IMG/VR virus record: IMGVR_UViG_3300009409_000065
Span: 1 to 20,765 of that record
DNA: 20,765 nucleotides
DNA from: a virus
Reading direction: 5' to 3' (one strand)
This document shows positions 4,655 to 19,817 of this stretch, in pieces. The notes beneath the pieces were generated by a model. The model had not been told where the DNA came from, did not search any database, and saw only the letters and a list, made by a program, of their open reading frames with translations. The position numbers and the translations under genes are program-made. Position 1 is the first letter of the stretch; each line of letters starts with the position of its first letter.

Positions 4655-4895
4655 TGAAGAATTGGTTGAGATTAGAGAAGCTATCGTTAAAACATTTTCT
4701 GGAACTTATGGTGAACGTGTTCTAGATTTTTTAGACGAAATGTACTCTAACCAGATTTCAGCAGTACCAAACGATCCCTACTCTACGTATTTCAATGAAG
4801 GTGGTCGTGGATTAGTGTTAGGAATAAAAGCACAAATTAAAGCTTTCAAAGAAGTTAAACCAACTATGCAACAAGAAACAACCTACGAAGAATAG
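4638..4895 (+). CDS. Bbp19-like small phage protein
   Basis: 85 residues. The core FSGTYGERVLDFLDEMYSN, then a short variable part, DPYSTYFNEGGRG and LVLGIKAQIKAF, matches the pattern of the Bbp19 family of small phage proteins: a helix around G-x-R-V-L, a spacer ending in a phase with an aromatic residue, then G-x-R-x-x-v-L-x-I. These proteins usually lie next to the portal gene in podoviruses, as here. Their function is not known; position suggests a head assembly or portal accessory role. It overlaps the portal end by 17 bases with its own strong ribosome binding site, so it can be made at higher level than the portal. The last residues (QQETTYEE) are acidic and probably disordered. Confidence 0.75.
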   Translation: MRSRYNEELVEIREAIVKTFSGTYGERVLDFLDEMYSNQISAVPNDPYSTYFNEGGRGLVLGIKAQIKAFKEVKPTMQQETTYEE

Positions 4896-4896
4896 G

Positions 4897-5127
4897 ATGG
4901 AAACAACAGAATGGAATTTCCCATGCGATGAGTGTGGAGCTTGTTGTAAGGTTTTAGATTGTCCTGATCTTACAGCAGATAACAAGTGTTCTATATATGC
5001 TACAAGACCATTCTTATGTAATACTAAAAAGATGTTTGATGAAGTACATAGTAAGACAATGACTAAACAAGGGTATTTTGATAAAGCTGCTATAGCTTGT
5101 AAACAACTAAAGGAGATGTTCTTATGA
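4897..5127 (+). CDS. YkgJ-family cysteine-cluster protein (CxxCxxCC)
   Basis: 76 residues with eight cysteines: Cys10, 13, 16, 17, 22, 31, 41 and 68. The pattern PCDECGACCKVL, then CP, NKCSIYATRPFLC, is that of the YkgJ/FliB-type cysteine cluster family, small proteins or domains thought to bind zinc or an iron-sulfur cluster; one branch is linked to flagellin lysine methylation. At this size only the cluster domain is present, with no separate catalytic domain. The start is one base after the previous stop and has little Shine-Dalgarno match, so coupling is likely. The end overlaps the scaffold-like gene by 4 bases (ATGA). A metal-cluster protein is not a standard member of a head gene block. 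Its job is unknown: metal or redox chemistry, modification of a host protein, or an assembly factor are all possible. Confidence 0.8.
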   Translation: METTEWNFPCDECGACCKVLDCPDLTADNKCSIYATRPFLCNTKKMFDEVHSKTMTKQGYFDKAAIACKQLKEMFL

Positions 5128-5966
5128 CTGAAGATGCGACCGTGACAAACGATAATCTCATCACAGAGGAAGTAGCACCCGTAGAGGATAATTCTTGGCA
5201 AGCACGTTATTTGCCTGATGATCTTAAGGAAAACGCAACCCTACAAAAGTTTAAGGATGTAGGTGGACTAAGTAGTTCCTATCTTTCTATGCAGGAAATG
5301 TTAGGTTCTAGGGTTAAAGTACCTACAGATGATTCTTCTGACGAAGAACGTAGTGACTTTTATACTAAAGTAGGTCGTCCAGAAACTCCTGACAAGTACG
5401 ATCTGGTAATTGATGAACGCTTTTCTGCTAATCCTGCGGATCAACAAAAGATTGTAGACTTTAGAAACCAAGCATTCAGTCAGGGCTTTACTAATAATCA
5501 AGCCCAGAAAGCAGTTGACTTTTATACTGATATGATAAATGGGGCTATGATTGATGGTGATGCAGCTATGGGACAAGCCCGTATATCCGCTGAAACTATT
5601 CTTAAAAAAGAATGGGGGCCACAAGAATATGACAAAAACCTTGCATTATCAAGACGTGCTTTTAATAGATTCGCAGACGAAGACTTAAAAACTTTTGTCA
5701 ATGAGAACGGTATAGCCAACAATGTTGGCATGATTAAGTTTCTGCACAAGATAGGGACAGCATTTAATGAGCCAGAAATGGCAGGCTCTGGCAGGGATAC
5801 TGGGTCAGTAGATTCAGATTCTGCTAGGATTGAAATAGATGCAATAATGAAAGACACCAAACATAAATACCATGAAGCATTGTTTGACCCCAAACACATT
5901 AAGCATGAAGAAGCAATTGCTTATAGGGATAATCTCTACGATGTGGTATACAGGGGTGAGGAATGA
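5124..5966 (+). CDS. Scaffold-like capsid assembly protein (T7 gp9-like position)
   Basis: 280 residues, against 307 for T7 gp9. The start is in an ATGA overlap, with AAGGAG 8 bases upstream. The first 25 residues are acidic and probably disordered. Next comes a segment common to podovirus scaffold or capsid assembly proteins: WQARYLPDDLKEN (25-37), LQKFKDVGGLSSSYLSMQEMLG, then a phrase ending GRPETPDKYDLVID. The remainder is strongly charged and helical, ending in acidic and His/Lys-rich helices. Such proteins co-assemble with the major capsid protein to set shell curvature and are removed before or during packaging. Position, two genes before the major capsid gene, supports this. The gene is flanked by two small Cys-rich genes, each overlapping it by 4 bases. 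Confidence 0.78.
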   Translation: MTEDATVTNDNLITEEVAPVEDNSWQARYLPDDLKENATLQKFKDVGGLSSSYLSMQEMLGSRVKVPTDDSSDEERSDFYTKVGRPETPDKYDLVIDERFSANPADQQKIVDFRNQAFSQGFTNNQAQKAVDFYTDMINGAMIDGDAAMGQARISAETILKKEWGPQEYDKNLALSRRAFNRFADEDLKTFVNENGIANNVGMIKFLHKIGTAFNEPEMAGSGRDTGSVDSDSARIEIDAIMKDTKHKYHEALFDPKHIKHEEAIAYRDNLYDVVYRGEE

Positions 5967-6208
5967 TTGAGAATATAATTTGCTCTGAGTGTTCGCACTT
6001 TACCTACAAAGACAGACGTGTTGAAGAGGAAAAGGGTAAGACCACTCCAGAGAAATATGGGTTTTGTAACTCTTATGAGACAAAGACTTCGGCAGATACA
6101 TTTTATGGAATGTGTCCTTCGGCAGTCAGACTCCCTGTAGAAGTTTACACTCCCCAACTTGTGAAGAAAATAGCCCGTAAAAGGACAACTAGGTCTTCAC
6201 GCAAATAA
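5963..6208 (+). CDS. Small putative zinc-binding protein (CxxC)
   Basis: 81 residues. Four cysteines, Cys7, Cys10, Cys35 and Cys51, are in the arrangement CSEC...FCNS...MCPS, compatible with a single tetrahedral metal site such as a small zinc ribbon. The C-terminal third is basic (KKIARKRTTRSSRK) and could touch nucleic acid or an acidic partner. The start overlaps the scaffold-like gene in ATGA, with an AGGGG match 6 bases upstream inside that gene. It is the last gene before the capsid leader. I recognise no family with confidence. With the YkgJ-type gene on the other side of the scaffold gene, the scaffold is bracketed by two Cys-rich small proteins. Confidence 0.7.
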   Translation: MIENIICSECSHFTYKDRRVEEEKGKTTPEKYGFCNSYETKTSADTFYGMCPSAVRLPVEVYTPQLVKKIARKRTTRSSRK

Positions 6209-6241
6209 GAGCCTGCATGGTGCAGATAACTCTTCCTTTTT
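6207..6241 (+). terminator. Candidate stem-loop terminator before the major capsid gene
   Basis: AAGAG (6207-6211) pairs with CTCTT (6230-6234), and inside it CTGCA (6213-6217) pairs with TGCAG (6221-6225) around the loop TGG. One unpaired base on the left and four on the right form an internal loop. CC and then five T (6237-6241) follow. The outer arm begins in the stop codon of the previous gene. The shape is compatible with a weak intrinsic terminator or an RNA processing hairpin; the 10 pairs are interrupted, so strength is doubtful. Confidence 0.4.
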
Positions 6242-6243
6242 AT

Positions 6244-6259
6244 CTCTTAAAATAAGAGG
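6244..6259 (+). promoter_or_regulatory. Hairpin covering the ribosome binding site of the major capsid gene
   Basis: CTCTT (6244-6248) and AAGAG (6254-6258) form a perfect five-pair stem with loop AAAAT. The right arm plus G6259 is the Shine-Dalgarno sequence AAGAGG, 6 bases before ATG 6266. Folding would therefore mask the site. The same two five-base arms also occur in the upstream stem-loop, so alternative pairings are possible. The stem is short and AT-containing, so it may be only marginally stable. Confidence 0.4.
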
Positions 6260-6265
6260 TGTATT

Positions 6266-7141
6266 ATGAGTACTGAAGTCAATAAAGCATTTGTCCAGAA
6301 GTTTAGGGACACTTTTATTCACTTGGTACAGCAAAAGGGTTCACGTTTGCGTGACTATGTTCGTTTAAATGCGGATGTAGTAGGTAAATATGACCATTTT
6401 GACAGAATAGGTAGCACATCGGCTCAAAAGATTACAAGCCGACATTCTGATACTCCATTAATCTCTACACCACACTCACGTAGACGTGTGAGCATGGATG
6501 ACTACAATTGGGCTGACTTGATTGACAAGGCAGATAAAGTCCGAATGTTAGCTGATCCTGCTTCCGACTATATGAAAGCTGGTGTATGGGCAATGGGGCG
6601 AAAGATGGATGATATAATCATCGCTGCTATGTCTGGTAACGCTACAACGATTGATGAGAATGACGCATCATCTAACGTAGCTTTACCTGCTGCTCAAAAA
6701 GTTGCTGTATCAGCTACAACGGATATGAACATTACGAAGCTAATGCAAGCTAAGAAAATCTTGGATGCTTCTGATGTTGATCCTGATTTACCACGCCATA
6801 TTGTTATGAAGAGCAATCAATTTTATGATCTCCTAGGGGATTCTGAAATTCAAAGCTCAGATTATAATACGGTCAAAGCTCTAGTAGCAGGGGATATTGA
6901 TACTTTTATGGGTTTCAAATTCCACCGTTCAGAGCGTTTAGCTCAAGATGCAAGTAGTGATACGCTATGTTTAGCATGGATTCCTGAAGGAATTGGTCTA
7001 AGCATGGGAATGGACGTTAAGACAGAAATCTCTGAACGTGCAGATAAAAACCATAGTACACAGGTCTATGCCCAGATGTGTTTAGGTGCGGTTCGCATCG
7101 AAGACGAAAAGGTTGTAGAGATTGCCTGTACTGATTCTTAA
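6266..7141 (+). CDS. Major capsid protein (HK97-fold type)
   Basis: 291 residues, shorter than T7 gp10A (345). Recognisable capsid features are an N-terminal helix (VNKAFVQKFRDTFIHLVQQKGS), the segment DTPLISTPHSRRRVSMDDYNW, the spine-like helix region LIDKADKVRMLADPASDYMKAGVWAMGRKMDD, a central LMQAKKILDASDVDPDLPRHIVM with residues facing the capsomer centre, and a closing AQMCLGAVRIEDEKVVEI strand. This is typical of the capsid family found in marine and enterobacterial podoviruses. It forms the icosahedral shell on the scaffold made upstream. The ribosome binding site lies in a potential hairpin (6244-6259). The gene is followed after 12 bases by the decoration-like gene, and I see no slippery site for a T7-type 10A/10B frameshift at its end. 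Confidence 0.9.
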   Translation: MSTEVNKAFVQKFRDTFIHLVQQKGSRLRDYVRLNADVVGKYDHFDRIGSTSAQKITSRHSDTPLISTPHSRRRVSMDDYNWADLIDKADKVRMLADPASDYMKAGVWAMGRKMDDIIIAAMSGNATTIDENDASSNVALPAAQKVAVSATTDMNITKLMQAKKILDASDVDPDLPRHIVMKSNQFYDLLGDSEIQSSDYNTVKALVAGDIDTFMGFKFHRSERLAQDASSDTLCLAWIPEGIGLSMGMDVKTEISERADKNHSTQVYAQMCLGAVRIEDEKVVEIACTDS

Positions 7142-7153
7142 CGGAGGTTTACT

Positions 7154-7621
7154 ATGGCTACTTTAAAAAGCACTGAGTACACCAACGCTACAGACGGTGC
7201 AGGAACCAAAAATGCCCCTACTTCTTGGAGTGGAGTAACTTATCGGTATGCACGATTTACTGGTACAGCCGTTACTACTTCAGATGTTATGCATGTGATG
7301 GTTATTCCTTCAGGTGTACGCATTTTACCGCAGTCCTTTGTCATTGTTAGTGACTTAGAGACATCAGCTACGGTAGATGTTGGTTATGCAGCACATACAA
7401 CCCAGAGTACTGGTGCAGCAGTTGCAGTTGATGTCAATGCGTTTTGTACCGTTATTGACGCTGCTTCCGCACGTACTGTTACACATTTCCACGAAAGCAC
7501 AACGCACGATACTGGTTATGTAACAACTGGTGAAATGATCCTCACGTTATCTATGCCAGCAGGTTCGGCTGTTGCAGCAGATACGTTTGATTTTCATATC
7601 ATGTACGCAGATCCTAACTAA
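7154..7621 (+). CDS. Putative capsid decoration protein (beta-rich)
   Basis: 155 residues, with a strong GGAGG (7143-7147) 6 bases before the ATG. The sequence is rich in Thr, Ala, Ser and Val with almost no Lys after the N-terminus, and alternates in a way typical of beta sandwiches (YRYARFTG, VMHVMVIPSGVRILPQSFVIVSD, TVDVGYAAHT, GEMILTLSMPAGSAV, FDFHIMYAD). Small beta proteins with a similar ordering (strand, a proline-glycine turn like PSGVRIL, then a periodic D-V-G-Y strand) often follow the capsid gene in aquatic podoviruses and are thought to sit on the shell surface. The gene is followed by a candidate terminator, so with the capsid gene it may form a highly expressed pair. Function is inferred from position and fold style only. 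Confidence 0.65.
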   Translation: MATLKSTEYTNATDGAGTKNAPTSWSGVTYRYARFTGTAVTTSDVMHVMVIPSGVRILPQSFVIVSDLETSATVDVGYAAHTTQSTGAAVAVDVNAFCTVIDAASARTVTHFHESTTHDTGYVTTGEMILTLSMPAGSAVAADTFDFHIMYADPN

Positions 7622-7627
7622 CTGTTT

Positions 7628-7661
7628 GGTGGTGGCTCTTAGGGGTCACCGCCTTACTTTT
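7628..7661 (+). terminator. Candidate intrinsic terminator after the capsid genes
   Basis: GGTGGTG (7628-7634) pairs with CACCGCC (7647-7653) over seven pairs including one G-T wobble, with a 12-base loop, and is followed by TTACTTTT (7654-7661). The stem is GC-rich in an AT-rich setting and lies in a 53-base intergenic gap. T7 has a terminator at the equivalent point, after gene 10. Partial read-through would be needed for the tail genes. Confidence 0.6.
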
Positions 7662-7674
7662 CAAGGAGAATGAT

Positions 7675-7755
7675 ATGCCAGCAGGAAAAGGAACTTACGG
7701 AACAAAAAAAGGAAGACCACCTGTACCTAAAAAGAAAAAAATAAGAGGTAAATAA
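7675..7755 (+). CDS. 26-residue basic microprotein with an AT-hook-like core
   Basis: ATG 7675 has a near-perfect AAGGAGA (7663-7669) 5 bases upstream, and the frame ends in TAA 7753-7755, abutting the next ATG. The product begins MPAGKGTYGTKKGRPP and ends PKKKKIRGK, with about ten Lys/Arg in 26 residues. The GRPP within basic flanks resembles the core of an AT-hook, a minor-groove DNA-binding peptide. Short proteins of this MPxGKGTYG...GRPP type recur near the capsid genes of many phages, to my recollection, but their function is not established. DNA condensation, assembly or a role at the head-tail stage are possible. The strong ribosome binding site and fit between neighbours support it as a real gene. 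Confidence 0.7.
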   Translation: MPAGKGTYGTKKGRPPVPKKKKIRGK

Positions 7756-7950
7756 ATGCCACAAGACAAACCGATCAACCTAATAGGAAAGACACTAAGA
7801 ACTGGTAGTAAGATTATTCTTAGTAAGGACATGACAGAAAATAGACTCAAAAATGCCCACAGTGGTGCAATAATGAGTTCAATTGTAGAACGAAATGCCA
7901 TTAAACATCGTAAGCAAACACCTAAAAAACCAAACAAAAAGGCAAAATAA
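7756..7950 (+). CDS. Small basic protein, function unknown
   Basis: 64 residues, starting directly at the stop of the 26-residue gene (TAAATG), with AAGAGG 7 bases upstream. The first half is mixed (INLIGKTLRTGSKIILS), the middle is a possible short helix (RLKNAHSGAIMSSIVERNAI) and the tail is strongly basic (KHRKQTPKKPNKKAK). There is no membrane segment, so it is not a holin despite lying before the peptidase gene. It ends at a TAAATG junction with the peptidase gene. No family is recognised. The basic tail would fit binding to DNA or an acidic partner. Confidence 0.65.
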   Translation: MPQDKPINLIGKTLRTGSKIILSKDMTENRLKNAHSGAIMSSIVERNAIKHRKQTPKKPNKKAK

Positions 7951-7953
7951 ATG
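7936..7953 (+). repeat. Stop-start junction motif, copy 1
   Basis: 18 bases covering an AAAAAGG Shine-Dalgarno-like stretch, the codons for a KAK ending, TAA and the ATG of the peptidase gene. It is identical to 15576-15593, which also joins two genes with the same stop and start. The sequence is A-rich and low in complexity, so chance cannot be excluded. Confidence 0.5.
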
Positions 7954-8322
7954 CCCACCAATAACCAAATCACAAGAAATTTCTCTGAAGCTGAATTTGC
8001 TTGCAAATGTGGATGTGGTTTGAAAGACATTAGTGTTAAACTAGTTGAGGATTTACAGATAACAAGATCAGAGTATGGTTGTCCAATGACGGTCACAAGT
8101 GGGATAAGGTGTCCTACTTGGAATAAGGCTTCTGGGGGATCTGAAAATTCTTCACATCTAACTGGTTTAGCTGTCGATATAGCAATGGATGATGCAGTCT
8201 TAAGACACCGATTAATACGTACAATTTTAGATATGGGATGGATGCGTGTAGGAATAGCGAAATCTTTTATCCATCTTGACATAGATTACAAAAAAACTAA
8301 CCCTGTTATTTGGACATACTAA
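7951..8322 (+). CDS. M15-family peptidase (probable endolysin)
   Basis: 123 residues. The N-terminus has FSEAEFACKCGCGLKDI, the usual entrance of the small M15 peptidase group. The zinc site is seen as SSHLTGLAVDI (His69 and Asp76) and FIHLDID (His108, with Asp110 near it), preceded by VTSGIRCP. These enzymes cut the peptide stems of peptidoglycan (L-alanyl-D-glutamate or D-alanyl-D-alanine bonds). The single-domain length without a signal peptide fits a soluble endolysin that needs a holin, but no holin-like gene is present in this window. The gene lies between head and tail genes, so an alternative is a virion-associated enzyme. It starts at a TAAATG junction. Confidence 0.88.
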   Translation: MPTNNQITRNFSEAEFACKCGCGLKDISVKLVEDLQITRSEYGCPMTVTSGIRCPTWNKASGGSENSSHLTGLAVDIAMDDAVLRHRLIRTILDMGWMRVGIAKSFIHLDIDYKKTNPVIWTY

Positions 8323-8902: not shown

Positions 8903-11005
8903 ATGGCTAAAGTATTCCCGATACAAACTAACTTTACGGCAGGTCAGTTATCACCACGTCTGCATGGTAGAGTTGACATAAATAAATATAACAACGGACT
9001 GAAGACACAGAAAAATGCCTACAGCTTACCGCATGGCGGTGTTGTGCGTAGAGGTGGTTTTCATTATGTAGCAGGAGTCAAAGGAATCCCTAGTGGTTCT
9101 GAATTAGTGGCTAACGGTACATTTGCGTCTAACATAACAGGTTGGACTGATAAGACAGTAGGATCTGGTAGTTCTATAGCCCACTCTACTAATTTAATGA
9201 ATATAGTATCTGTCGATGCCAGTAACTACGGTTGGGCAGAAGATGAAATAGTTACAGTAGCTGGTAAGTTATATGTACTTAGTTTTACTATTGGAACAGG
9301 TGCGGTCAATGTTCAGATTGGGACAACTACTGGGGCTGTCGATATTTTAGCTTCAACATCCTATACCGCTGCAACGCATACTATAGAGTTTACCGCACTT
9401 AGCACAGCAACTTTTATTGGTTTCAAGCATACTACAGGTGCTACACATACCATAGATACTGTTTCAGTTAAAATTGCTACCCAAGACGCAAAAATACGTT
9501 TAGCTAAATTTGAATTTAGTGTTACGCAAGCCTATATCTTAGAGTTTGGTAATCTGTATGTACGATTCTATAAAGATAACGGTCAAATACAAACTGGTGG
9601 TGATGTAGTAGAAGTTGTAACTCCATACACAACGGCTCAAGTACCCGATATATATCTTGCTCAATCTGCCGATACGCTGTATATAGCACATCCTGCTCAT
9701 GCTCCACGTAAACTCACACGAACTAGCCATGTAGCGTGGACTCTGGCTACTTTATCATTTGCGACTGCTCCTTCTAACTTTGTAGGGGGTGCAGGAGAAT
9801 ACCCTAGGTCAGTTACATTTTTTGAGGAAAGATTATATTGGGGTGGTACAGACAATAACCCACAAACAATTTGGGCAAGCAAGTCAGGTGATTTTTTAAA
9901 TATGGATCAAGGTACTGGTTTAGATGATGAATCAGTAGAGTTTACATTAGCTACAGATGACGTAAATGTTATACGCTGGATGAAAGCATCTGATGTGTTA
10001 TTGATTGGTACTGTAGGCGGTGAATTTAAGCTACATGGGAATGGCGCTCCCGTGACTCCATCTAATGTAAGGGTTGTTCAAGAAACTAAGTACGGTTCTA
10101 GTACAGTCATACCAGTTACTTCTGGTCGTGCTGTTTTATTCAACCAAAGAGCCACTAAAAAAATACGTCAAATGATTTTTGATTTGAACGTGGAAGGATT
10201 TGTAGCACCAGATTTAACCATACTAGCTGAAGATATTACTGGGGATGGTATTTCTGATATGGCTTATCAGCAAGAACCTGATTCAATTATATGGGCTGTT
10301 CGTTCCGATGGGCTTCTTATTGGGCTAACTTACCAAAGAGATCAACAAGTAGTTGCTTGGCATCAACATCCAGTTGGCGGTACAGGTACAGAAGTTGAAA
10401 GCGTTGCTGTTATTCCTTCCTCAGATGGCTTGGCTGATGAATTATGGATAAGTGTCAAGAGAACTATTAATGGAGGCACGGTAAGATATATTGAGTACTT
10501 AGATCCAGCTATCTATGTAGATTCTGGCTTAACTTACTCAGGTACTCCGATCAGTGATTTTTCTGGTTTAGCTCATTTAGAAGGACAGACGGTAGCGATT
10601 GTTGGAGATGACGCAGTATACCCAAGTGTAGTAGTCTCTGGTGGTTCTGTATCTATCTCTGAATCCGTTTCTACAGCATACATTGGTCTTCCTTACACAA
10701 CAGAGGTTGTAACACTACCTCCAGAAGTACCCCAGAAAGATGGTGCTTCTTTTGGTAAAAAGAAATCTTGGAATAGAATCATACTGAACTTATATCAAAC
10801 TTTAGGTATTACCGTAAACAGCAAGCAGTTGATTCTTCGCTCTGGTGGAGATCCTATGGATTCAGCCCCTCCTGAGTTTACTGGACAGCATGATGTCACA
10901 AATTTAGGATGGAAAGAATCTGATTCTTCTTTAACCATTAAACAGGAGCAACCGCTTGGTATGACGTTAATATCGATAACAGGCGAACTTAATGTATCAG
11001 ACTGA
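8903..11005 (+). CDS. Tail nozzle (T7 gp12-like tail tubular protein B) with an inserted beta domain
   Basis: 700 residues, against 794 in T7. The N-terminus NFTAGQLSPRLHGRVDINKYNNG (10-32), KNAYSLPHGGVVRRGGFHYV (37-56) and the later propeller-like WASKSGDFLNMDQG and DEISVE-like segments are characteristic. Between residues about 65 and 192 there is a Ser/Thr/Gly-rich segment that begins ELVANGTFASNITGWTDK and has the look of a carbohydrate-binding jelly-roll domain, with VDASNYGWAEDEIVTVAGKLYV further on. The family sequence resumes at DAKIRLAKFEFSVTQAYILEFG (195-216). The protein forms the lower tail tube. The inserted domain may face outward and bind surface glycans. The 3' end overlaps the next gene by 14 bases. 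Confidence 0.88.
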   Translation: MAKVFPIQTNFTAGQLSPRLHGRVDINKYNNGLKTQKNAYSLPHGGVVRRGGFHYVAGVKGIPSGSELVANGTFASNITGWTDKTVGSGSSIAHSTNLMNIVSVDASNYGWAEDEIVTVAGKLYVLSFTIGTGAVNVQIGTTTGAVDILASTSYTAATHTIEFTALSTATFIGFKHTTGATHTIDTVSVKIATQDAKIRLAKFEFSVTQAYILEFGNLYVRFYKDNGQIQTGGDVVEVVTPYTTAQVPDIYLAQSADTLYIAHPAHAPRKLTRTSHVAWTLATLSFATAPSNFVGGAGEYPRSVTFFEERLYWGGTDNNPQTIWASKSGDFLNMDQGTGLDDESVEFTLATDDVNVIRWMKASDVLLIGTVGGEFKLHGNGAPVTPSNVRVVQETKYGSSTVIPVTSGRAVLFNQRATKKIRQMIFDLNVEGFVAPDLTILAEDITGDGISDMAYQQEPDSIIWAVRSDGLLIGLTYQRDQQVVAWHQHPVGGTGTEVESVAVIPSSDGLADELWISVKRTINGGTVRYIEYLDPAIYVDSGLTYSGTPISDFSGLAHLEGQTVAIVGDDAVYPSVVVSGGSVSISESVSTAYIGLPYTTEVVTLPPEVPQKDGASFGKKKSWNRIILNLYQTLGITVNSKQLILRSGGDPMDSAPPEFTGQHDVTNLGWKESDSSLTIKQEQPLGMTLISITGELNVSD

Positions 11006-11483
11006 ACCACCATTAAAACAATGTGGTAGAATACAGATAGTTCCTTACCAGCATGAGCATTTTAAGGAACTGGTAGTTAGACCACATGATGACACAGTAA
11101 AGGCAGCCGTTAAATTGTCAGACACACAATGGGCTGATGCAATAGGAAGAGAAGCAATAGAAGCTTACACATGCTATTTAGATGGTAAAATATTATTAAT
11201 AGGTGGTATCAATATACTATGGGATGGAGTTGGAGAAGTCTGGGTTATAGGTTCTCCACAGATTCCATCTCTAAGATTTTCATACATCAAGATATGTAAG
11301 TTCTACTTGAAGTACGTACGTGAAAAGTATAAGTTAAAACGGGTACAAGCCCAAGTTGTAAAGGATTATGAGATGTTACACAGATTTGTAAAATATCTAG
11401 GATTCACATACGAAGGCACTTTACATAACTACTGCGGTGGAACAATGGACAACTGTATGTACGCTATCTGGGAGGGCAAATAA
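10992..11483 (+). CDS. T7 gp13-like internal virion protein (GNAT-like fold)
   Basis: 163 residues (T7 gp13 is 138). The position right after the gp12-like gene equals gene 13 of T7. Visible parts: RIQIVPYQHEHFKELV (13-28), a helix DTQWADAIGREAIEAYTCYLDGK, the strands ILLIGGINILWDGVGEVWVIGS (67-88), a long helix SLRFSYIKICKFYLKYVREKYK, and RVQAQVVKDYEMLHRFVKYLGF, followed by YEGTL. This ends like a GNAT protein (helix then LGF-x-x-EG). The acetyl-CoA loop R/Q-x-x-G-x-G/A is not present, so an enzyme role is unlikely. In T7, gp13 is needed for virion assembly. It overlaps the previous gene by 14 bases and shares one base with the next (TAATG). Confidence 0.82.
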   Translation: MYQTEPPLKQCGRIQIVPYQHEHFKELVVRPHDDTVKAAVKLSDTQWADAIGREAIEAYTCYLDGKILLIGGINILWDGVGEVWVIGSPQIPSLRFSYIKICKFYLKYVREKYKLKRVQAQVVKDYEMLHRFVKYLGFTYEGTLHNYCGGTMDNCMYAIWEGK

Positions 11484-12280
11484 TGGATCCAGTTACCATG
11501 GCAGTTGTTGGAGGAGCAGCAGTAGCAAAGGGTGCTAGTGGTTACAAAGCAGGGCAAAATTCCGCTAAGTCTGCAATGGCTACGGCAGAGTACAACGCAC
11601 AGATATCAAAGATCAACGCTCAGATGGAACAGGATCGTGGTCGTATTGTTAGGGCGATTGATGAACGTAATGCCGACATAGTAGGAGAGCAGTCTGTTTA
11701 CAATGCTTACTTAATAGACAGGCAAGCAACCCAAATAGAAGACCAGAATGAATTTGATTTCTTTATGGCTGAGAGGCAGTATGACATATTCACCTCTGAG
11801 AAAAGAGCTAAATGGGGTAACTCTGGGGTTACGATGTCTGGTAGTCCTGCTGTAGTAGCAATGGCTGATGCTAATGCTGCTGCTTTAAATTTAGCTAACA
11901 TAGAACAAAGAGGATATCAAGCAGTATCTAGGACGGAACAAGCAGCAGAAATGACCCGATATAAAGGTAAGGTAGACTACAACAATATGATGCAACAAGC
12001 TTTTATGGGGCAGTATAACTCAGACATCCAAAGAGCTAGTATTATTAATCAAGGTAACATGAACTACTACGCAGGGGCTTCTAAAGCTTACCAAGCACAA
12101 CAAGCAGCTAATGCAGCACTAATAGGTGGTATAGCAGATGGTGTTAGTGGTCTTGCTTCTGGTGGTGCATTTGCAGGTGGTGGGGGGTCAACTGGAACAA
12201 TGCAAGGCCCAACTGGTTATACTCCCAATAATTATTCATCAGGCTTAGGGAATGATGCAAGACAGGGCTTTGCCCCATAA
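11483..12280 (+). CDS. Internal virion (ejection) protein, T7 gp14-like
   Basis: 265 residues (T7 gp14 is 196). The start overlaps the previous stop by one base (TAATG), with GGGAGGG about 6 bases upstream. The N-terminal hydrophobic segment TMAVVGGAAVAKGASGYKAG (5-24) and the C-terminal glycine/alanine-rich segment NAALIGGIADGVSGLASGG (about 210-230) flank a long Gln/Ala-rich helical core (SKINAQMEQDRGRIVRAIDE and QSVYNAYLIDRQATQIEDQN). This is the usual layout of the smallest ejection protein, which in T7 inserts in the outer membrane and begins the DNA channel. The Gly-rich C-terminal tail (GGGGSTGTMQGPTG) is longer than in T7. Confidence 0.82.
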   Translation: MDPVTMAVVGGAAVAKGASGYKAGQNSAKSAMATAEYNAQISKINAQMEQDRGRIVRAIDERNADIVGEQSVYNAYLIDRQATQIEDQNEFDFFMAERQYDIFTSEKRAKWGNSGVTMSGSPAVVAMADANAAALNLANIEQRGYQAVSRTEQAAEMTRYKGKVDYNNMMQQAFMGQYNSDIQRASIINQGNMNYYAGASKAYQAQQAANAALIGGIADGVSGLASGGAFAGGGGSTGTMQGPTGYTPNNYSSGLGNDARQGFAP

Positions 12281-12289
12281 GGATAAACT

Positions 12290-14224
12290 ATGGCTAAAAT
12301 AGGATCACCTTTACAAATAGACCAAAGAAAATCTGTTCAAGAACCTGTATTGCTTCCAACCACTAGTCGGATTGGTAACAATGTCGGAGCCTTGAAAGTA
12401 GATTATATGCCTTATGAAATAGGGCAGGAGAATGCTAAAGCGCAGATGGCTGTCACTAATGAGCTATCCAATATGGCTTTTAAAGTTGCTGAAGCTTATC
12501 AAGTCACCGAAAACATTAATAGACAATATAAGGTCAATTTATTAGAAAGAGATTTACAGGAAAATGATGCCGTATTTGCTAGTGAAATGTCAGAAGCACG
12601 TACTTATGAACAAAAGAATGATGTAGTAGAGAGATACCGTGCCAGTATTACTGATTTCGGTTCCCGATACAACAAGATATACCCTTCTGCAACGCCAAAA
12701 GAACAAAGAGTTGGATTGGATATGCAGTCACGTTCACTTGCGAAAGCTAGTACCTATGAAGTACAAGCGAATATGGCGCAATATTCTGAGACTACTTCTG
12801 ACTTGAAGTTGAGATTAAAACTAAACTCAGAAGAGTTTGGAACCAAACAATCAATAGACCCTATATTACAGTTACGTAAAGGTAAGGAGTTGCTAGGACA
12901 ACTGCTTGAAATTGGAGCTATGACTAAAACTGGATATGATACAGCTTTTAATCAGTATGTTACAGATGGTTATATAAACCGTTCTAAACTAATGGGGCGA
13001 CAATTTGGACAGGATGTGGCAGATGGTAAATTTGCAAAGGATATGACCAAGGAATCTATTTTAGAGCATATTGGTGCTTTAGTAGGAATAGATGGAAATT
13101 TAGACCCTTCCAGATCCAATCAGGTTTACGAAGCATTTAATATAGCTTCTACTACAAGACTAAGAGAACTCAATACACAAGACACAGCTTTTGAACGAAG
13201 CGCAAATACTTACTTTAGAGAGGATGTATTGAAACGAAAAGAAAACTATAAGATTAGCGAAGACAACGGAACACTAACCCAAGAAAGTCATGATGACTTT
13301 ATATCGTATTTATATAATAATAGATTGTATGGAGAAAGAAAAAAGCAAGACCTAAGATATAGTGAATACCAAAACGATAAACGACCTATTACTAATTTAG
13401 TTACTGCTTGGACAGATTCAGATGGTTTAATAGCACGTGCAATAGCAGATGGCACAGCCAGTGGCTCAGACTATGGTATGTATAATACTGCAACTAATTC
13501 GTATGATGTTGACAATATTGTAAAGTTAATGAGGGATCAAGGAATAACCCATCAACCAACCATTTCTGCCGTTAGATCATTTTATAGAGATACTCATACT
13601 GCTTTGTCTAAGGGTTATAATGGGGGCGCTCAATCTGGGTTGGTTATAGACGATGAGATTAAAAGGTTGATGTTTAAAGATGTGAAGGGTGATACATCTA
13701 TGCAGTTTAAAAATTCTTGGGGCGTTACTATTCCAGAAGGTAGTCCATTTGAGTATAAACAATATACGTCAAATCCTAAAGGAGTCGTAAACGCAGCACA
13801 GGACGCATTCCCAATTTTACAGGAATTTGAGACTGCAATGACAGGGGCTATTCAAGCAGACATATCAAACTCTGCTAGTCAAAGACGTGTTAAGGATCAA
13901 GAATCAATTGAACATTTAAGCCGTTATTCACATCAAGATGGCAAAGATGGAAGAGTGGCAACCCCATTTTACACAATAGTAGATCCACAAACAAACAGTC
14001 ATATTACTTGGGAGCAAAGGACAAATACACCAAAATTCAGAGAACAGTTTAAGAAATATGTAGCTGATATTGCATATAGTGTTAAGCGAAATCTTAGACC
14101 AATTGAGTATTGGAAGGCTAGTGACGCACGAATAGTTCTAGATGAGAAAATAAAAGCAGATAAAAAAATAGAAGATAAAACCATAAATAATTCTTTCACA
14201 GGGTCATATAAAAAAAATGACTGA
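12290..14224 (+). CDS. Internal virion (ejection) protein, T7 gp15-like
   Basis: 644 residues (T7 gp15 is 747). ATG 12290 has AAGGAT nearby. The protein is mostly charged helix with no signal peptide or membrane segment. Residues about 40-75 and 85-140 look like long amphipathic or coiled-coil helices (EIGQENAKAQMAVTNELSNM, ENDAVFASEMSEARTYEQKN). The N-terminal KIGSPLQIDQRKSVQEP and RIGNNVGALKVDYMPYEIG resemble other gp15-type proteins of marine podoviruses. It is placed between gp14-like and gp16-like genes, and probably forms the periplasmic part of the ejection channel. The 3' end is a run of eight A, then TGACTGA, where the next gene starts 8 bases before this one ends in the +1 frame. 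Confidence 0.72.
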   Translation: MAKIGSPLQIDQRKSVQEPVLLPTTSRIGNNVGALKVDYMPYEIGQENAKAQMAVTNELSNMAFKVAEAYQVTENINRQYKVNLLERDLQENDAVFASEMSEARTYEQKNDVVERYRASITDFGSRYNKIYPSATPKEQRVGLDMQSRSLAKASTYEVQANMAQYSETTSDLKLRLKLNSEEFGTKQSIDPILQLRKGKELLGQLLEIGAMTKTGYDTAFNQYVTDGYINRSKLMGRQFGQDVADGKFAKDMTKESILEHIGALVGIDGNLDPSRSNQVYEAFNIASTTRLRELNTQDTAFERSANTYFREDVLKRKENYKISEDNGTLTQESHDDFISYLYNNRLYGERKKQDLRYSEYQNDKRPITNLVTAWTDSDGLIARAIADGTASGSDYGMYNTATNSYDVDNIVKLMRDQGITHQPTISAVRSFYRDTHTALSKGYNGGAQSGLVIDDEIKRLMFKDVKGDTSMQFKNSWGVTIPEGSPFEYKQYTSNPKGVVNAAQDAFPILQEFETAMTGAIQADISNSASQRRVKDQESIEHLSRYSHQDGKDGRVATPFYTIVDPQTNSHITWEQRTNTPKFREQFKKYVADIAYSVKRNLRPIEYWKASDARIVLDEKIKADKKIEDKTINNSFTGSYKKND

Positions 14225-15590
14225 ACAAGAAATGGTAGAAGACACAGGTGACGTTGTTGCAAAGTCTTTAGGAGTAGATCCTAAAACTCCTGTCAAGGAT
14301 GTCATCAACGATCAGGTACAGTTCCCTTGGTTAAAGGAGACTAAGGGTAGTTACGACTCTAAAATAGATTTTGATAGATCAAAGAAACTAAGTGCTGGAT
14401 TAGAAGCACTAGAGCCATCTACTAAGGTTGACCCTTTAGCTGAATTAGAATCACTACAACCATCTACTAATATAACACCAGAGGAAATACCAAGAGAGTT
14501 AGAGAAGCTTAACCCGTCAGAAAAACGCACGTCTTTTGCTACAGATGTCATGGACGATGACGCAGAGCGTACAATACCTCAGTGGGTTAATGATGAAATG
14601 AAAAGCTTTGGGATACTCTCTGATTTGGTACAATCTCCATTTGATGAACAAGAAGAAACCAATGAATACATTATAAAATCTGGGGATACTTTATCTGAGA
14701 TAGCAGAACGGCATGATCTTAGCACAGATGAAATACTAAAATTAAACCCACAGGTTAAAAATGCAGGAGAAATATTTGCTGGTGAATCACTAAAGATGAC
14801 AGGGGATTCCCCTAGTTCTCCTAGCTTTCTTGATGAGTCACTATATGGTGGAGGAGGGGATATTGGAGAACATAGTTTTGGTAGTATAGTGCCTAGTAAT
14901 CTCAATAGACTATGGGAGTATATCTCCCACGATAAGACTGTACGAACAGAGAAGGATGTCAAACCAGAAGAATATGAAGTTCTAAAGGAATTAGGGAAGA
15001 AAGCAATACAAAGAGGTCAAGGACTTGCGCCACAGATTCTAACAACAAGGGGTACTGGTGGTTATAAGGATAAACCACAATATATTAAAAATAAAAACTA
15101 CATTGTTTCCTACACAGATTACGATGACAAGGGTGGATCTGAGTTAGGTTATGGGCATGAAACGTCTTTAGAAAAGATGTCTGATCCTGCTTATAACATG
15201 AAGACATCATACGGTGTAATGCGACTTTTTACAGACAAAGGAAAGGTATATCTTGGTGATGAGCAAAACTTTTATGACCCAGATTTGGGTGGGAAAGGAC
15301 AGAAGCCACAACTGCGTGACCAACCTATAGCAGATCGTGTAAGCCATTTATATGATATGGCAATAAGTATGGCTAAAGGAGATGAAAAGGCAACACCAGC
15401 AGGACTTGCACATAAGTTTGCAGAGGCTTTTGGCCCTGCTATGGGAGATGGTGCGTCCACTAGAATACTAATCGGTAATTCAAGTGAGTTAGGTTTAGAC
15501 AAAAAACAATTTAAAGACATACCAACTCTTAAAGAATACGAAGCTTTTATGGTTAAGACAGGGCAACTTAATAAAAAAAAGGCAAAATAA
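14217..15590 (+). CDS. Virion protein with a LysM peptidoglycan-binding domain
   Basis: 457 residues. A single LysM domain lies at about 150-194: YIIKSGDTLSEIAERHDLST, then DEILKLNPQ, then AGEIFAGESLKM. LysM binds N-acetylglucosamine in peptidoglycan. Before it lies an acidic, probably disordered region with three LExLxPS repeats (62-101). After it, about 200-457, there is a region with GSELGYGHETSLEKMSD, SYGVMRLFTDKGKVYLGDEQ and LAHKFAEAFGPAMGDG, which I cannot assign. No SLT, amidase or peptidase motif is seen. Position between gp15-like and gp16-like genes suggests a virion-internal protein that touches the cell wall during DNA ejection. The Shine-Dalgarno match is weak (AGGG 13 bases upstream), so translation probably depends on the previous gene. 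Confidence 0.78.
   Translation: MTEQEMVEDTGDVVAKSLGVDPKTPVKDVINDQVQFPWLKETKGSYDSKIDFDRSKKLSAGLEALEPSTKVDPLAELESLQPSTNITPEEIPRELEKLNPSEKRTSFATDVMDDDAERTIPQWVNDEMKSFGILSDLVQSPFDEQEETNEYIIKSGDTLSEIAERHDLSTDEILKLNPQVKNAGEIFAGESLKMTGDSPSSPSFLDESLYGGGGDIGEHSFGSIVPSNLNRLWEYISHDKTVRTEKDVKPEEYEVLKELGKKAIQRGQGLAPQILTTRGTGGYKDKPQYIKNKNYIVSYTDYDDKGGSELGYGHETSLEKMSDPAYNMKTSYGVMRLFTDKGKVYLGDEQNFYDPDLGGKGQKPQLRDQPIADRVSHLYDMAISMAKGDEKATPAGLAHKFAEAFGPAMGDGASTRILIGNSSELGLDKKQFKDIPTLKEYEAFMVKTGQLNKKKAK
14400..14520 (+). repeat. Imperfect tandem repeat in the LysM gene (LExLxPS)
   Basis: A 26-base unit starting TTAGAAGCACTAGAGC at 14400-14425 recurs at 14445-14470 with 23 matches in 26, 45 bases apart. A more degenerate third unit begins at 14499. 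They encode LEALEPSTK, LESLQPSTN and LEKLNPSEK. The two closer copies point to a fairly recent in-frame duplication in a linker. Confidence 0.75.
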
Positions 15591-15593
15591 ATG
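15576..15593 (+). repeat. Stop-start junction motif, copy 2
   Basis: The same 18 bases as at 7936-7953. It ends the LysM gene (KAK, TAA) and starts the gp16-like gene at ATG 15591 with AAAAGG about 8 bases ahead. Confidence 0.5.
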
Positions 15594-18500
15594 GCAGAAT
15601 CAATTACACGCATAGAAGATGAAAAAGGTATAGAAGAACAGGGAATACGAATGCCTTACTTTGACCAAGGCAAGGCTATGGAACGTGAATCAGAAATAGA
15701 ACTAGTGCAGATTGATGCCAAAAAAGCATCTGACACAGAGATTAGACCCATTGAAGAGTCTGACATGGTAGTTGACCATATGACCATGGAAGATAAAGAG
15801 ATGGAAGACAAGCGTTTACAAGAGTATGAAGAGGCAGAAGATGAATTTCGTGGGGTTTACCCTGATGGGAATAGAAGATTACGTTCACCAGAACCAGAAA
15901 AAGAGCCAGCATTACGTGATGACGAAGATTTAAAGTTAACATATGATGGAGATGGCAATGCTACTGGTTATGAGGTGGAAGACAAACCTTTTATTTGGCA
16001 AACAGCCGATGTTATGGGAGATGTGTTAACAGGAGCTATTGCAGGGGGTATGTACTCTGTAGATGCAACAGCGCAGTTCTTTGTAAATACAACTAATCTC
16101 TTCAGCCCAGATCCAGAGGATGATATTAGGTTCTTTAGTTATTTGGGTGATTGGCTAATGAAAGATGGTGGTGATGCAAAAGAATTTGGTCGTGATATGG
16201 GTCGTTTTATGGTGCCGTTTCTTGGGTCTTTAAAAATAGCAAGGATGGCTACTGGTGCTGCAACTAAACTTAAAGTATTTGATAAGGCTCCTAGATTTAT
16301 AGCAGGAGCTAAAGGTGTTAAAAATTTACCCAAAGTTAACAAGAGCAACATTAAAAAACAGAAGCTACAGGATTTTCTTAAAAAGGATCTAACTTCTGGT
16401 CAGTTAGCTTACCTATTATCAGGAGGTGTTGCCTATAATGCTGATGAATTAAGTGGTGGTCTTGCTGGTCTAAAGGCTATTGATGGTGCTATGGGTGGTG
16501 AGATAGGAAGATTTTTTGAGTCAGATGACAAAACGAATGCTCAAAAACGCCTAGAGAACGCATTGGCAGAGAGGTTTCTTTTTTACAACATAGACAAGCA
16601 TGTATTGCCTATCGTTAAACAACTGGGTTTGTCAGTACACAATTGGACATCTAAGCCACTTGCTGCGAAAGTAGCATCAGCTATAGGTATGGAGAAACAT
16701 ATATTAGCTCAAAAACAACGGGTAAAACTGAACGCACGTGGGCAAGGTAATACAGTTATTACAGAAGATGCACAGACAGGACTGCTCAAGGTAAATGCAA
16801 GAGAAGATGGCAGTATCGAATTTATTACTCAAGAACGTATGGGTCATGGTTTTAAACAAATCATTAGAAGCAAAGAGGAAATGTCTGACTTTGCACTAAG
16901 AATGGTTCCAGAGGGTACAGTTGTTAAAAACGGTGTAATAGCAATTGAGCATGAGGGGAAATTGTATTCTGCTAAAGTTGGGGAGAAGATAGGAGGACGG
17001 ACAATCTATACCCATTTAGACCTAGTAGAAGCTCATGGAGCAGGGGCTACTGAGATAAAAGCAGGTACAAGAACTGGATTCCTTGACAAAGAAGGTAAGT
17101 TTGTGAACTCACCAGCTAGTATGCCACGTCAGAGATATGAGACACTTCCAGAATTGCAAGGTGATGAATTTATAGCTGGCACAGGCAATACTAGATTAGA
17201 AAAATTAAAGTCGATGTGGGATGACGGTAGTCTTCAAGAACGTATGGATACGGCTCCAACCCTAGTAGAAAAGGTATCAGTTGCTAACGACATTATTGAG
17301 GTGTTAGAACGATCTTCAAAAGGATCTGGAGGCAGTAAAAGTGTCAAACAAATGCGTAGCGAAGCAGACACAATATTAAAAAATATGTGGGGTGAGGATT
17401 TAGATGGTCTACTTGGTCGTGCTATGGGATCTCCTGTTAATGATCCTATAGCTATAGCTTATGCAACAGCAGCTAAATCGGCACACGATGACCTTATTCT
17501 AGCACTACAACGTGTAGAAAATATGCCAGTAGGTTTTCAAGATGCTGCTTCTACTACTTCTAATATGTTCCGTACCTTATATAACTACGCAGGGTTACGT
17601 GAACAACTCAAAGATGTTAAGAAGGTCTGGGGGCGTACTGGTACTGCTCTTAGATTCTCTCAGAATAAATTTGATGACATATTAGAATCTCCTTCGTTTG
17701 CTAAAATTATGCAAGAAAGTGAGAACGCATCAGAACAAGATGTTATACGACTAGCAATAGCACTTTCAACATCATTGAGAGAACAGGGTGGAAGAGGATT
17801 GGCAAAAGCAGTTGAGTCTTTTGGTAAGACAGGATTTTCTGCTGCATTCCAAGAAGGATATATTGGATTGGGATTACTTAGTAGCCCTGCTTTGCAGATG
17901 TTAAACCTTGCCACAGGATTAGCGAATATATCTAGTACCCTGATAAGCCGTCCGATTTCAGGAGTGGCTAGTAAATTAACAGGTCATGGCGATGTGCGAA
18001 TGGAAGAAGCAATGGCAGGAGTCTACGGGATGATGTCTTCTATATTGGTAGCAACCAAACTAGGTATTTCAGCAGCCGTCACAGGTAAATCTGCTCCTGC
18101 TTTTACTGGTGCTAAAATGGAAAACTATACAGGGTTAAGGCATATCACGTCTGAAAATTTTGGGTTAGAGAACTATACTGCTGGACTAGCTGTTGATTTT
18201 ATAGGTAAAACTGCTAGATTGACAGGTCGGATGCTACTAGGTGGAGATGACTTTGTTAAAGTTGTTTCGTATGAAACGGAACGTCACATGCTATCTTATC
18301 GTATTGCAATGAATAAGATGAAAGGGGAGAAGTTTGACTATAATAAGTTTACTAAACTGACCCAAGAAATATACGATAATCCTGAGAAATACACAATTAG
18401 CAAAGGTGGCCCTACAATACATCAACGTGGTCTAGAACAAGGACGACTGAATGTACTACAACAAGACTTGGGAGGATTAGGTAAAAAAGTACAAAGTATG

Positions 18501-19817
18501 CAAAATAGTATACCTTTTGTATCTCCTATTGTTAAATTGTTTGTTCCGTTTGTTAAGGTGCTATCTAATATACCTAAACTAGCGGTTAGATACTCTCCTA
18601 TGAGTGCCTTAAATTTTAAGGGTGCAAATTCTATATATAGGAAATCGGCTCCTGAGAGAATGGAAGAGATCGGGAGGATGGCATATGGTACAATGTTGGC
18701 TAGTCTGGGGGGGATTCTATATAATAGCGGTGTGTTAACAGATTCTGGGGATCTTGATTGGGATATAAGACGCAATCGAATAGAAGGGGATGCTGCTCCA
18801 CCTCTGTCAATCCGTCATGTTAATGACAAAGGAGGGAAGTATTGGGTTGATCTCTCTAGGTTACAACCTTGGATTAATATATTAGGTGTTGGTGCTGATG
18901 CTGTTAAAGGGTACGAAGATTGGGGTGATAAAACGACAGAGGAACATATATTTAAAGGTGTATGGTCTATGAAACAAATGTTAGCTAATACATCTTGGAT
19001 GCCTAATATGCACAAACTATTAGATCTAATGGCTAACGACAAACTAGAACCTTGGAAATTTCAACACGCAGCTAACGCTTTAATAACCAGTATGTCTACA
19101 CCTGCGTGGAATAGGGCTGTTGGCAGGGCATACGAACCAATTCAACCAGAATACAAAACATTTCACTCAGAACCAGAAAACAAATTTACAGGTAGACCAG
19201 AAGATTACTCTGGAATTGCTGCTAGAATGTTGGGTTCAACTACAGGGAAAGAGGGCGTACTTCCACCACACCGTAATTATAATGGAGATGTAGTCAATTA
19301 CCATGAAACAGAAAAAGCAGCTAACGCTGGAGTGACTCCGTTTGGTCTACCACGTTGGGCAACTGGTGGTGCTATGTCTTTCATGGCTGTCAGAGAAGAC
19401 AGATCGACTAAGGTAGATAAAGAATTAGCCAAAATCGAATTGCCTATTGTAAAACCAACTGATATAGTAAAACAGCCTCAAACGCAAATACCTATTCGTA
19501 TGAGGTACTATGAATACGACTATTTTATGGAACGTATTGGTAAAATAAAGCTAGGTGGGCTTACACAACAACAGGCTTGGCATCGTAAAATGAATCAGAA
19601 AATGTATAAAGAAGCCCCTATTCGTGGTTATGACAAGTCAATACCTTCCAAACAAGATGAGATGATGAAGATACATATAGACTATAAAACAGCAGCAAAG
19701 CAAGAAACGATAGCCAGATTTAAGATATACGATAGGGCAGGCAGGATTTTAGATGAGCCAGTAGTCCCATTCGCACCAGAAAGCAGACGTTTAAGAGATA
19801 AAAGAGGAAACCAATGA
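15591..19817 (+). CDS. Large internal virion (ejection) protein, T7 gp16-like by position
   Basis: 1408 residues (T7 gp16 is 1318), last of the ejection set. Residues 1-130 are highly acidic and disordered-looking. A segment GDVLTGAIAGGMYSVDATAQ (143-162) and DMGRFMVPFLGSLKIARMAT (202-221) have the amphipathic helix pattern found in large ejection proteins of marine podoviruses. Further moderately hydrophobic stretches lie near 757-780, 811-832 and 1029-1045, which may enter the membrane. I could not find the N-terminal lytic transglycosylase motif of T7 gp16. The protein likely forms the inner-membrane end of the channel and helps pull in DNA. It begins at a TAAATG junction and overlaps the fibre gene by 4 bases (ATGA). 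The family relation is inferred from size, position and helix style. Confidence 0.75.
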   Translation: MAESITRIEDEKGIEEQGIRMPYFDQGKAMERESEIELVQIDAKKASDTEIRPIEESDMVVDHMTMEDKEMEDKRLQEYEEAEDEFRGVYPDGNRRLRSPEPEKEPALRDDEDLKLTYDGDGNATGYEVEDKPFIWQTADVMGDVLTGAIAGGMYSVDATAQFFVNTTNLFSPDPEDDIRFFSYLGDWLMKDGGDAKEFGRDMGRFMVPFLGSLKIARMATGAATKLKVFDKAPRFIAGAKGVKNLPKVNKSNIKKQKLQDFLKKDLTSGQLAYLLSGGVAYNADELSGGLAGLKAIDGAMGGEIGRFFESDDKTNAQKRLENALAERFLFYNIDKHVLPIVKQLGLSVHNWTSKPLAAKVASAIGMEKHILAQKQRVKLNARGQGNTVITEDAQTGLLKVNAREDGSIEFITQERMGHGFKQIIRSKEEMSDFALRMVPEGTVVKNGVIAIEHEGKLYSAKVGEKIGGRTIYTHLDLVEAHGAGATEIKAGTRTGFLDKEGKFVNSPASMPRQRYETLPELQGDEFIAGTGNTRLEKLKSMWDDGSLQERMDTAPTLVEKVSVANDIIEVLERSSKGSGGSKSVKQMRSEADTILKNMWGEDLDGLLGRAMGSPVNDPIAIAYATAAKSAHDDLILALQRVENMPVGFQDAASTTSNMFRTLYNYAGLREQLKDVKKVWGRTGTALRFSQNKFDDILESPSFAKIMQESENASEQDVIRLAIALSTSLREQGGRGLAKAVESFGKTGFSAAFQEGYIGLGLLSSPALQMLNLATGLANISSTLISRPISGVASKLTGHGDVRMEEAMAGVYGMMSSILVATKLGISAAVTGKSAPAFTGAKMENYTGLRHITSENFGLENYTAGLAVDFIGKTARLTGRMLLGGDDFVKVVSYETERHMLSYRIAMNKMKGEKFDYNKFTKLTQEIYDNPEKYTISKGGPTIHQRGLEQGRLNVLQQDLGGLGKKVQSMQNSIPFVSPIVKLFVPFVKVLSNIPKLAVRYSPMSALNFKGANSIYRKSAPERMEEIGRMAYGTMLASLGGILYNSGVLTDSGDLDWDIRRNRIEGDAAPPLSIRHVNDKGGKYWVDLSRLQPWINILGVGADAVKGYEDWGDKTTEEHIFKGVWSMKQMLANTSWMPNMHKLLDLMANDKLEPWKFQHAANALITSMSTPAWNRAVGRAYEPIQPEYKTFHSEPENKFTGRPEDYSGIAARMLGSTTGKEGVLPPHRNYNGDVVNYHETEKAANAGVTPFGLPRWATGGAMSFMAVREDRSTKVDKELAKIELPIVKPTDIVKQPQTQIPIRMRYYEYDYFMERIGKIKLGGLTQQQAWHRKMNQKMYKEAPIRGYDKSIPSKQDEMMKIHIDYKTAAKQETIARFKIYDRAGRILDEPVVPFAPESRRLRDKRGNQ

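Follow-up and report, generated by a model that had tools for sequence, protein, structure and literature searches.

The window analyzed here, the whole 20,765-base stretch of IMG/VR record IMGVR_UViG_3300009409_000065, is a podovirus record related to the marine pelagiphages, and it carries a gene for a LysM protein inside its set of ejection genes. Its portal protein is nearest to that of pelagiphage EXVC032P Baldr (38%), with the HTVC010P group at 31-34% (among the best 30 of 237 matches). The genes run in the order terminase, portal, scaffold, capsid, M15 peptidase, tail tube A, tail tube B and ejection set, and the ejection set itself in the order gp13-like, gp14-like, gp15-position, LysM and gp16-like. 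Features of the ejection set are given below, with lengths in amino acids (aa) and matches with their expectation values (E).

10992..11483, + strand: gp13-like protein (phrog_4177, E 7.1e-21; phrog_308 "internal virion protein," E 2.4e-14)
11483..12280, + strand: gp14-like internal virion protein (phrog_418 "internal virion protein," E 5.5e-5)
12290..14224, + strand: gp15-position ejection gene, 644 aa (assigned by position; its relative in the viral contig L096 is fused with the LysM-containing module)
14217..14224, + strand: 8 bases shared by the gp15-position and LysM genes, following eight consecutive As (14210-14217)
14217..15590, + strand: LysM gene, 457 aa (open reading frame [ORF] list, ATG start, Pfam LysM)
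14217..14663, + strand: N-terminal 149 aa of the LysM protein, linker-like (sequence comparison with relatives)
14667..14795, + strand: LysM domain, aa 151-193 (PF01476, E 1.1e-9)
14898..15587, + strand: C-terminal "NF" domain, aa 228-457 (matches to L096, L021 and phrog_7348, and by hhalign)
15591..19817, + strand: gp16-like internal virion protein, 1408 aa (phrog_6651 "internal virion protein," E 3.9e-16)

The LysM gene and its place among the ejection genes

The original prediction, made from the letters of the DNA, placed a LysM domain in a gene between the gp15-like and gp16-like genes, and this was confirmed: the PF01476 match scores 38.5 bits against a curated cut-off of 20.9 bits. Because LysM also scores over the cut-off in five relatives from viral contigs (L002, L003, L014, L094 and L096), the call is not a chance one. 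Members of the PF01476 family bind N-acetylglucosamine (GlcNAc)-containing glycans, and the window protein is predicted to do the same. At E<=1 the whole protein matched only LysM-type models in Pfam, and aa 252-457 matched no Pfam family at E<=10, a nominal threshold under which the HMMER filters still discard most matches above an E of about 0.1. A LysM search over 51 chosen records, the window not among them, put 4 above the cut-off; L094 and L096 were scored separately. Direct search of viral contigs confirmed no full-length relative of the LysM protein, and a search of the phage collection returned 50 records, none covering 80% of it, the best 40 of the 50 all matching at LysM.

In L096, the gp15-like protein, LysM and NF form a single protein of 1504 aa encoded by one ORF (3423-7937). 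The gp15-position protein of the window aligns with the N terminus of this fusion (26% identity over 454 aa, E 1e-29) and the LysM protein also aligns with it (32% over 336 aa, E 8e-40). The fusion therefore ties the LysM-containing module to the gp15-position protein, and it is our chief argument for a part of the virion ejection machinery over a lysis gene. We consider it most improbable that the LysM protein is an ordinary lysis endolysin sited among the ejection genes. LysM is common in endolysins, and the sections available of PMC6775973 describe cobaviruses with diverse endolysin genes beside internal virion protein genes; the window, however, has a separate M15 peptidase, no enzyme is recognized in the LysM protein, and L094 and L012, like L096, carry the module as part of their gp15-like protein. 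Residues 754-827 of the L096 fusion also gave a weak match to the DnaG DnaB-binding domain (E 7.3e-4), below the cut-off.

In the window, the gp16-like gene begins 1 base past the end of the LysM gene (15590 to 15591), and the gp15-position and LysM frames are offset by one at the eight-A run. It is conceivable that slippage at this run would yield a fused product like that of L096.

Wall crossing by short-tailed phages is known chiefly from T7 and P22. In the T7 model, as described in the sections available of PMC8954989, gp14 makes the pore in the outer membrane, a tube in the periplasm is assembled from gp15 and gp16, and the path is cleared by a wall enzyme. The window resembles the T7 gp14/gp15/gp16 ejectosome in its gene order, in gp14-like and gp16-like families recognized through PHROG and in an apparent tie between wall function and ejection proteins, which in T7 takes the form of a lytic transglycosylase at the N terminus of gp16. 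Unlike T7, in which no gene is annotated between 15 (ending at 30568) and 16 (starting at 30595), it has the extra LysM gene, and it lacks a detected SLT domain, both as predicted at the outset: a search with PF01464 at E<=10 found nothing in the window, including the gene next to the LysM gene, whereas it found the T7 gp16 control at E 5.8e-33. A further difference is that the window proteins have no significant direct match to T7 proteins; the gp15-position protein matches neither a PHROG nor, significantly, T7 gp15.

Exchange of the part after LysM among relatives

Viral contig scans gave eight distinct relatives in which the place after the gp15-like gene can be read, or nine loci with the window. 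Contigs that were the same as or nearly identical to one of these were left out (L004-L006, L010 and L011 for L002; L027 for L003; L091 and L092 for L021; L095 for L028; L097 for L096), as were contigs on which the interval is incomplete (such as L007, L019, L020, L029 and L093), L019 being kept in the tree only. The module is a separate gene in five of the nine loci (window, L002, L003, L014 and L021) and is fused to the C terminus of the gp15-like protein in three (L012, L094 and L096); in the ninth, L028, there is just a long gp15-like protein, in which nothing was recognized. LysM scores above the cut-off in six loci (window, L002, L003, L014, L094 and L096) and the NF domain is found in three (window, L096 and L021), with the gp16-like gene next after the module place in eight.

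What accompanies LysM, or stands in its place, differs widely. L012 has an M15 peptidase on its gp15-like protein, over the cut-off (PF13539, E 7.4e-7). The L014 module combines LysM with a weakly supported SLT-like part (PF01464 at E 7.3e-4 when that genome was searched alone; 13.1 bits, short of the 21.3-bit cut-off), matches a transglycosylase family (phrog_4067, E 0.002) and has, by eye, a motif that agrees with SLT (E, then S..GA.G.MQ). LysM is joined to an unrecognized part in L002 and to an unrecognized lysine-rich part in L003. L094 looks lysozyme-like by eye, but neither PF00959 nor PF18013 hit it at E<=10, and its C terminus turned up no lysozyme when scanned against Pfam, PHROG and PDB. 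The N-terminal 149 aa of the window protein are common to L002 (50% over 147 aa) and partly to L003 (47% over 47 aa) and have no match in L014, L021, L096, L094 or L012.

A tree of gp13 plus gp14 makes L002 the sister of the window (93% identical) and likewise pairs L003 with L012 and L014 with L094, with support of 0.99 or more. None of these three sister pairs shows detectable module similarity beyond LysM, and the window part after LysM has no detectable similarity to L002, L003, L014, L094 or L012. The same part is 34% identical to that of L096 over 237 aa, even though the gp13 and gp14 of these two share only 62%. The tree does not settle the placement of L096 and L021 (support 0.14), so the number of NF moves cannot be counted. 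Judged by these comparisons, the gene is apparently a cartridge, its part after LysM having been swapped even between closest relatives.

Such differences between the C termini of the closest relatives, together with the want of an enzyme family in the modules of L002, L003 and L028, would also fit an exchangeable C terminus that is cargo delivered into the host, such as a counterdefense or takeover factor, with LysM as a passenger or targeting piece. We regard this as improbable, since the only confidently identified module, the L012 M15 peptidase, is a wall enzyme and the presence of LysM in six of the nine loci points to the periplasm.

Two records outside the nine loci also bear LysM-type sequences. 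In a more distant podovirus (L066, 7968-10031), a protein after the tail-tube B gene gave a subthreshold LysM-like match (14.4 bits, E 6.9e-4). Roseobacter phage CRP-235 gp25 (L090, 8809-11343), of 843 aa, has LysM near its N terminus and lies close to a gene annotated as lysozyme.

The C-terminal NF domain

NF is a name coined in this analysis for the C-terminal domain of the window protein. By BLAST, it matches L096 (34% over 237 aa, E 1e-32) and L021 (26% over 140 aa, E 1e-5). A profile built from window, L096 and L021 scored HTVC115P gp40 at 14.8 bits, against a shuffled maximum of 9.4 (302 of 500 shuffles scored) and 6.2 bits for the best nonmember ORF (3112 ORFs in all). The roseophages CRP-4 and SIO1 did not score significantly with that profile alone (-0.3 and -0.7 bits; shuffled maxima, 5.8 and 9.6) and are linked to NF through HTVC115P and hhalign, in which NF matched an alignment of HTVC115P, CRP-4 gp36 and SIO1 gp23 at 95.5% (pairwise E 1.4e-8) and a narrower alignment at 85.4% (E 5.8e-6). 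These carriers range from HTVC115P gp40 (1893 aa, no Pfam match) to the CRP-4 and SIO1 proteins of 259 and 200 aa. SIO1 gp23 (L099, 7665-8267) stops directly past the NF motif, and its CRP-4 counterpart extends further.

A second link is to phrog_7348, a profile of 2564 positions labeled "endolysin." The window LysM matches positions 2089-2153 (E 7.5e-9, one-genome search) and the window NF matches positions 2440-2505 (E 1.0e-5 in a one-genome search, 0.005 in the library), so that LysM precedes NF in both, the remaining profile positions being uncovered. HTVC115P gp40 matches positions 2395-2554 (E 8.7e-23). Both PHROG 7348 and HTVC115P gp40 represent giant proteins, unlike the 457-aa protein of the window. 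The C terminus of L096 reached only E 0.37 with phrog_7348, the C termini of L096 and L021 alone had no PHROG match, and the profile also matches 10 of 14 control genomes, presumably via LysM.

Profile searches and structure prediction, proposed earlier as a way to assign the C terminus, thus produced a conserved domain with an "endolysin" family match, no Pfam family and two AlphaFold2 models from three-row alignments whose mean predicted local distance difference test (pLDDT) scores of 48.8 and 52.3 are too poor to judge. Run on the first model, Foldseek had no hit in PDB or BFVD at E<=0.001; for the second, the best VIA-align hit was a MazG-related chain (Z 4.3, 54 residues). We claim no fold from these searches, and absence from them excludes no family. 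Searching the phage collection with the C-terminal domain alone produced no match for the window or L021 query and two weak places for L096, including HTVC115P (E 0.4). PDB sequence searches gave nothing useful, two-sequence alignments of the C terminus found nothing in the viral contigs or the L096 contig alone, a three-sequence gp16 alignment returned only L002-L004 from them, and genome contigs searched with gp16 and with the C-terminal domain gave no matches. A D-x-Y-D motif had suggested colicin M, a lipid II hydrolase; PF14859 matched none of six records, and the control genomes were silent as well.

Does NF cut peptidoglycan? One version of the interpretation developed below makes it an enzyme of an undescribed family and the LysM protein a virion-associated lysin that replaces the transglycosylase of T7 gp16. 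The M15 peptidase of L012 and the weak SLT-like domain of L014 at the same place, the lack of a detected SLT in the window and the match of NF to the end of an "endolysin" family with LysM upstream all suggest this, as do three Asp columns retained in four of five aligned NF sequences and a by-eye lysozyme likeness in SIO1 gp24, which adjoins gp23. Against these stand the silence of Pfam on NF at E<=10, the possibility that the phrog_7348 label stems from LysM alone, the negative results with PF01464, PF00959 and PF18013 in SIO1, the lack of LysM in L021 and the sparse conservation in the small and uncertain alignment of five sequences, where two Gly, one Asn and one Phe are the only invariant residues (three Asp, two Tyr and other positions agree in four of the five). 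With invariant residues so sparse, the residues decide nothing on cutting, and we regard an enzymatic NF as doubtful. The earlier suggestion that the C terminus could hold a wall-cutting domain finds support in relatives, through L012 and less surely L014; in the window's own domain no hydrolase is recognized.

It is possible, if short of probable, that NF is instead a structural or binding domain, at the tunnel, inner membrane or capsid core, with LysM as a mere anchor and the wall opened by another protein or threaded. The occurrence of NF within proteins as unlike in length as those of HTVC115P, CRP-4 and SIO1 is consistent with this, as is the separate M15 peptidase gene of the window; the M15 peptidase and the less certain SLT-like domain that relatives carry in its stead speak against it.

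That M15_3 peptidase gene lies at 7951-8322, between the capsid and tail-tube genes (PF08291, E 3.8e-17). It has a counterpart in L002, L028 and L019 and no matching ORF of >=60 aa in L014, L092 or L029. Elsewhere in the window, a small protein between portal and scaffold (4897-5127) gave a weak match to the CxxCxxCC zinc/iron-chelating family PF03692 (E 8.8e-4, below the cut-off), and a second small Cys-containing ORF (5963-6208) had no match. An acetyltransferase-type protein is encoded near the portal gene (2081-2554; PF00583, E 3.6e-9), and the protein in the gp13 place (10992-11483) is also of acetyltransferase type, with PF13420 at only E 0.013.

A possible wall interface for the ejection channel

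Taking the gene order, the fusion and the exchange together, we lean, with somewhat more confidence than doubt, toward the view that the LysM product is a detached C-terminal cartridge of the gp15-position protein that is packaged in the virion, ejected along with the channel and docks it at peptidoglycan. The LysM protein would enter the virion with the internal proteins and leave it alongside them at ejection. Once in the periplasm, it would bind peptidoglycan through LysM, docking the tube to the wall, and its C-terminal domain would act on the wall or at it; together these would fix the channel there and help it through. Because relatives swap the C-terminal part, and at least one of them has a known wall enzyme in its place, the cartridge may be an adjustable wall interface. 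The proposal of a wall-binding ejection part, which we started from, survives in this form, favored by the link to an ejection gene in L096 and by the search that found no SLT in the window; cutting of the wall by the LysM protein itself is doubtful.

Several observations weigh against this view. Only position and the fusion to gp15 in L096 point to membership in the virion, and the gp15 identity of 12290-14224 is itself positional only. A wall enzyme scores above its curated cut-off in just one of the nine modules (L012), and the SLT of L014 is a weak call that Pfam library scans did not list; the L014 contig moreover stops 248 bases past the module, in an open frame not confirmed as a gp16-like gene. 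Three of the nine loci (L002, L003 and L028) have neither NF nor an enzyme family in Pfam or PHROG-type scans, and the L003 module instead matches, weakly, a tape-measure family (phrog_2335, E 6.1e-4). L021 has NF without LysM, and no wall enzyme is recognized in the LysM protein of the window.

A wider proposal, which we think unlikely to hold in full, is that the clade keeps an exchangeable wall cartridge at the gp15/gp16 joint, in which LysM is combined with an interchangeable domain for catalysis or docking and which is carried within the gp15-like protein or as its own gene, and that NF is an undescribed wall-active family in pelagiphage, roseophage and PHROG 7348 proteins.

Published work, cited here from the sections available of each paper, includes partial parallels. 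Movement of the wall enzyme between gp16 and gp15 has been described already (PMC8954989), and in Pectobacterium phage PhiM1 the gp15-type protein (OEP) contains a lysozyme-like domain (PMC11440229). The PhiM1 OEP and the gp15 homologues of K1E and K1-5 thus show a wall-active domain on a gp15-type protein and not only on gp16, comparable to the L012 fusion; the window part differs in being a separate gene, in bearing LysM and in varying in kind among near relatives. Virion-associated lysins (VALs) are wall enzymes on virion proteins that are active in entry (PMC5380687), as exemplified by motif 3 of the mycobacteriophage TM4 tape-measure protein (PMC1796659), whereas the window LysM protein, known here from its gene alone, has no recognized enzyme. 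"LysM" is absent from the main text of both PMC8954989 and PMC5380687. LysM is among the domains overrepresented in recently shuffled phage proteins, there endolysins (PMC10684548), in contrast to its site at the gp15/gp16 joint in the window; the main text of that paper contains neither "internal virion" nor "ejection." The accessible part of the PhiGT1 paper yielded nothing on wall enzymes, and among the literature titles and abstract openings searched we found no report of a LysM gene at the gp15/gp16 place. LysM in the ejection set, its separate gene and its quick exchange between near relatives are thus what the window adds to the published picture.

If the module is what it seems, the wall step of these phages would be a fast-changing plug-in part, while capsid and tail tube stay constant. 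NF offers a handle on large unannotated proteins of the virion region, and adaptation to host walls, if this view is true, would become testable in relatives of the abundant pelagiphages.

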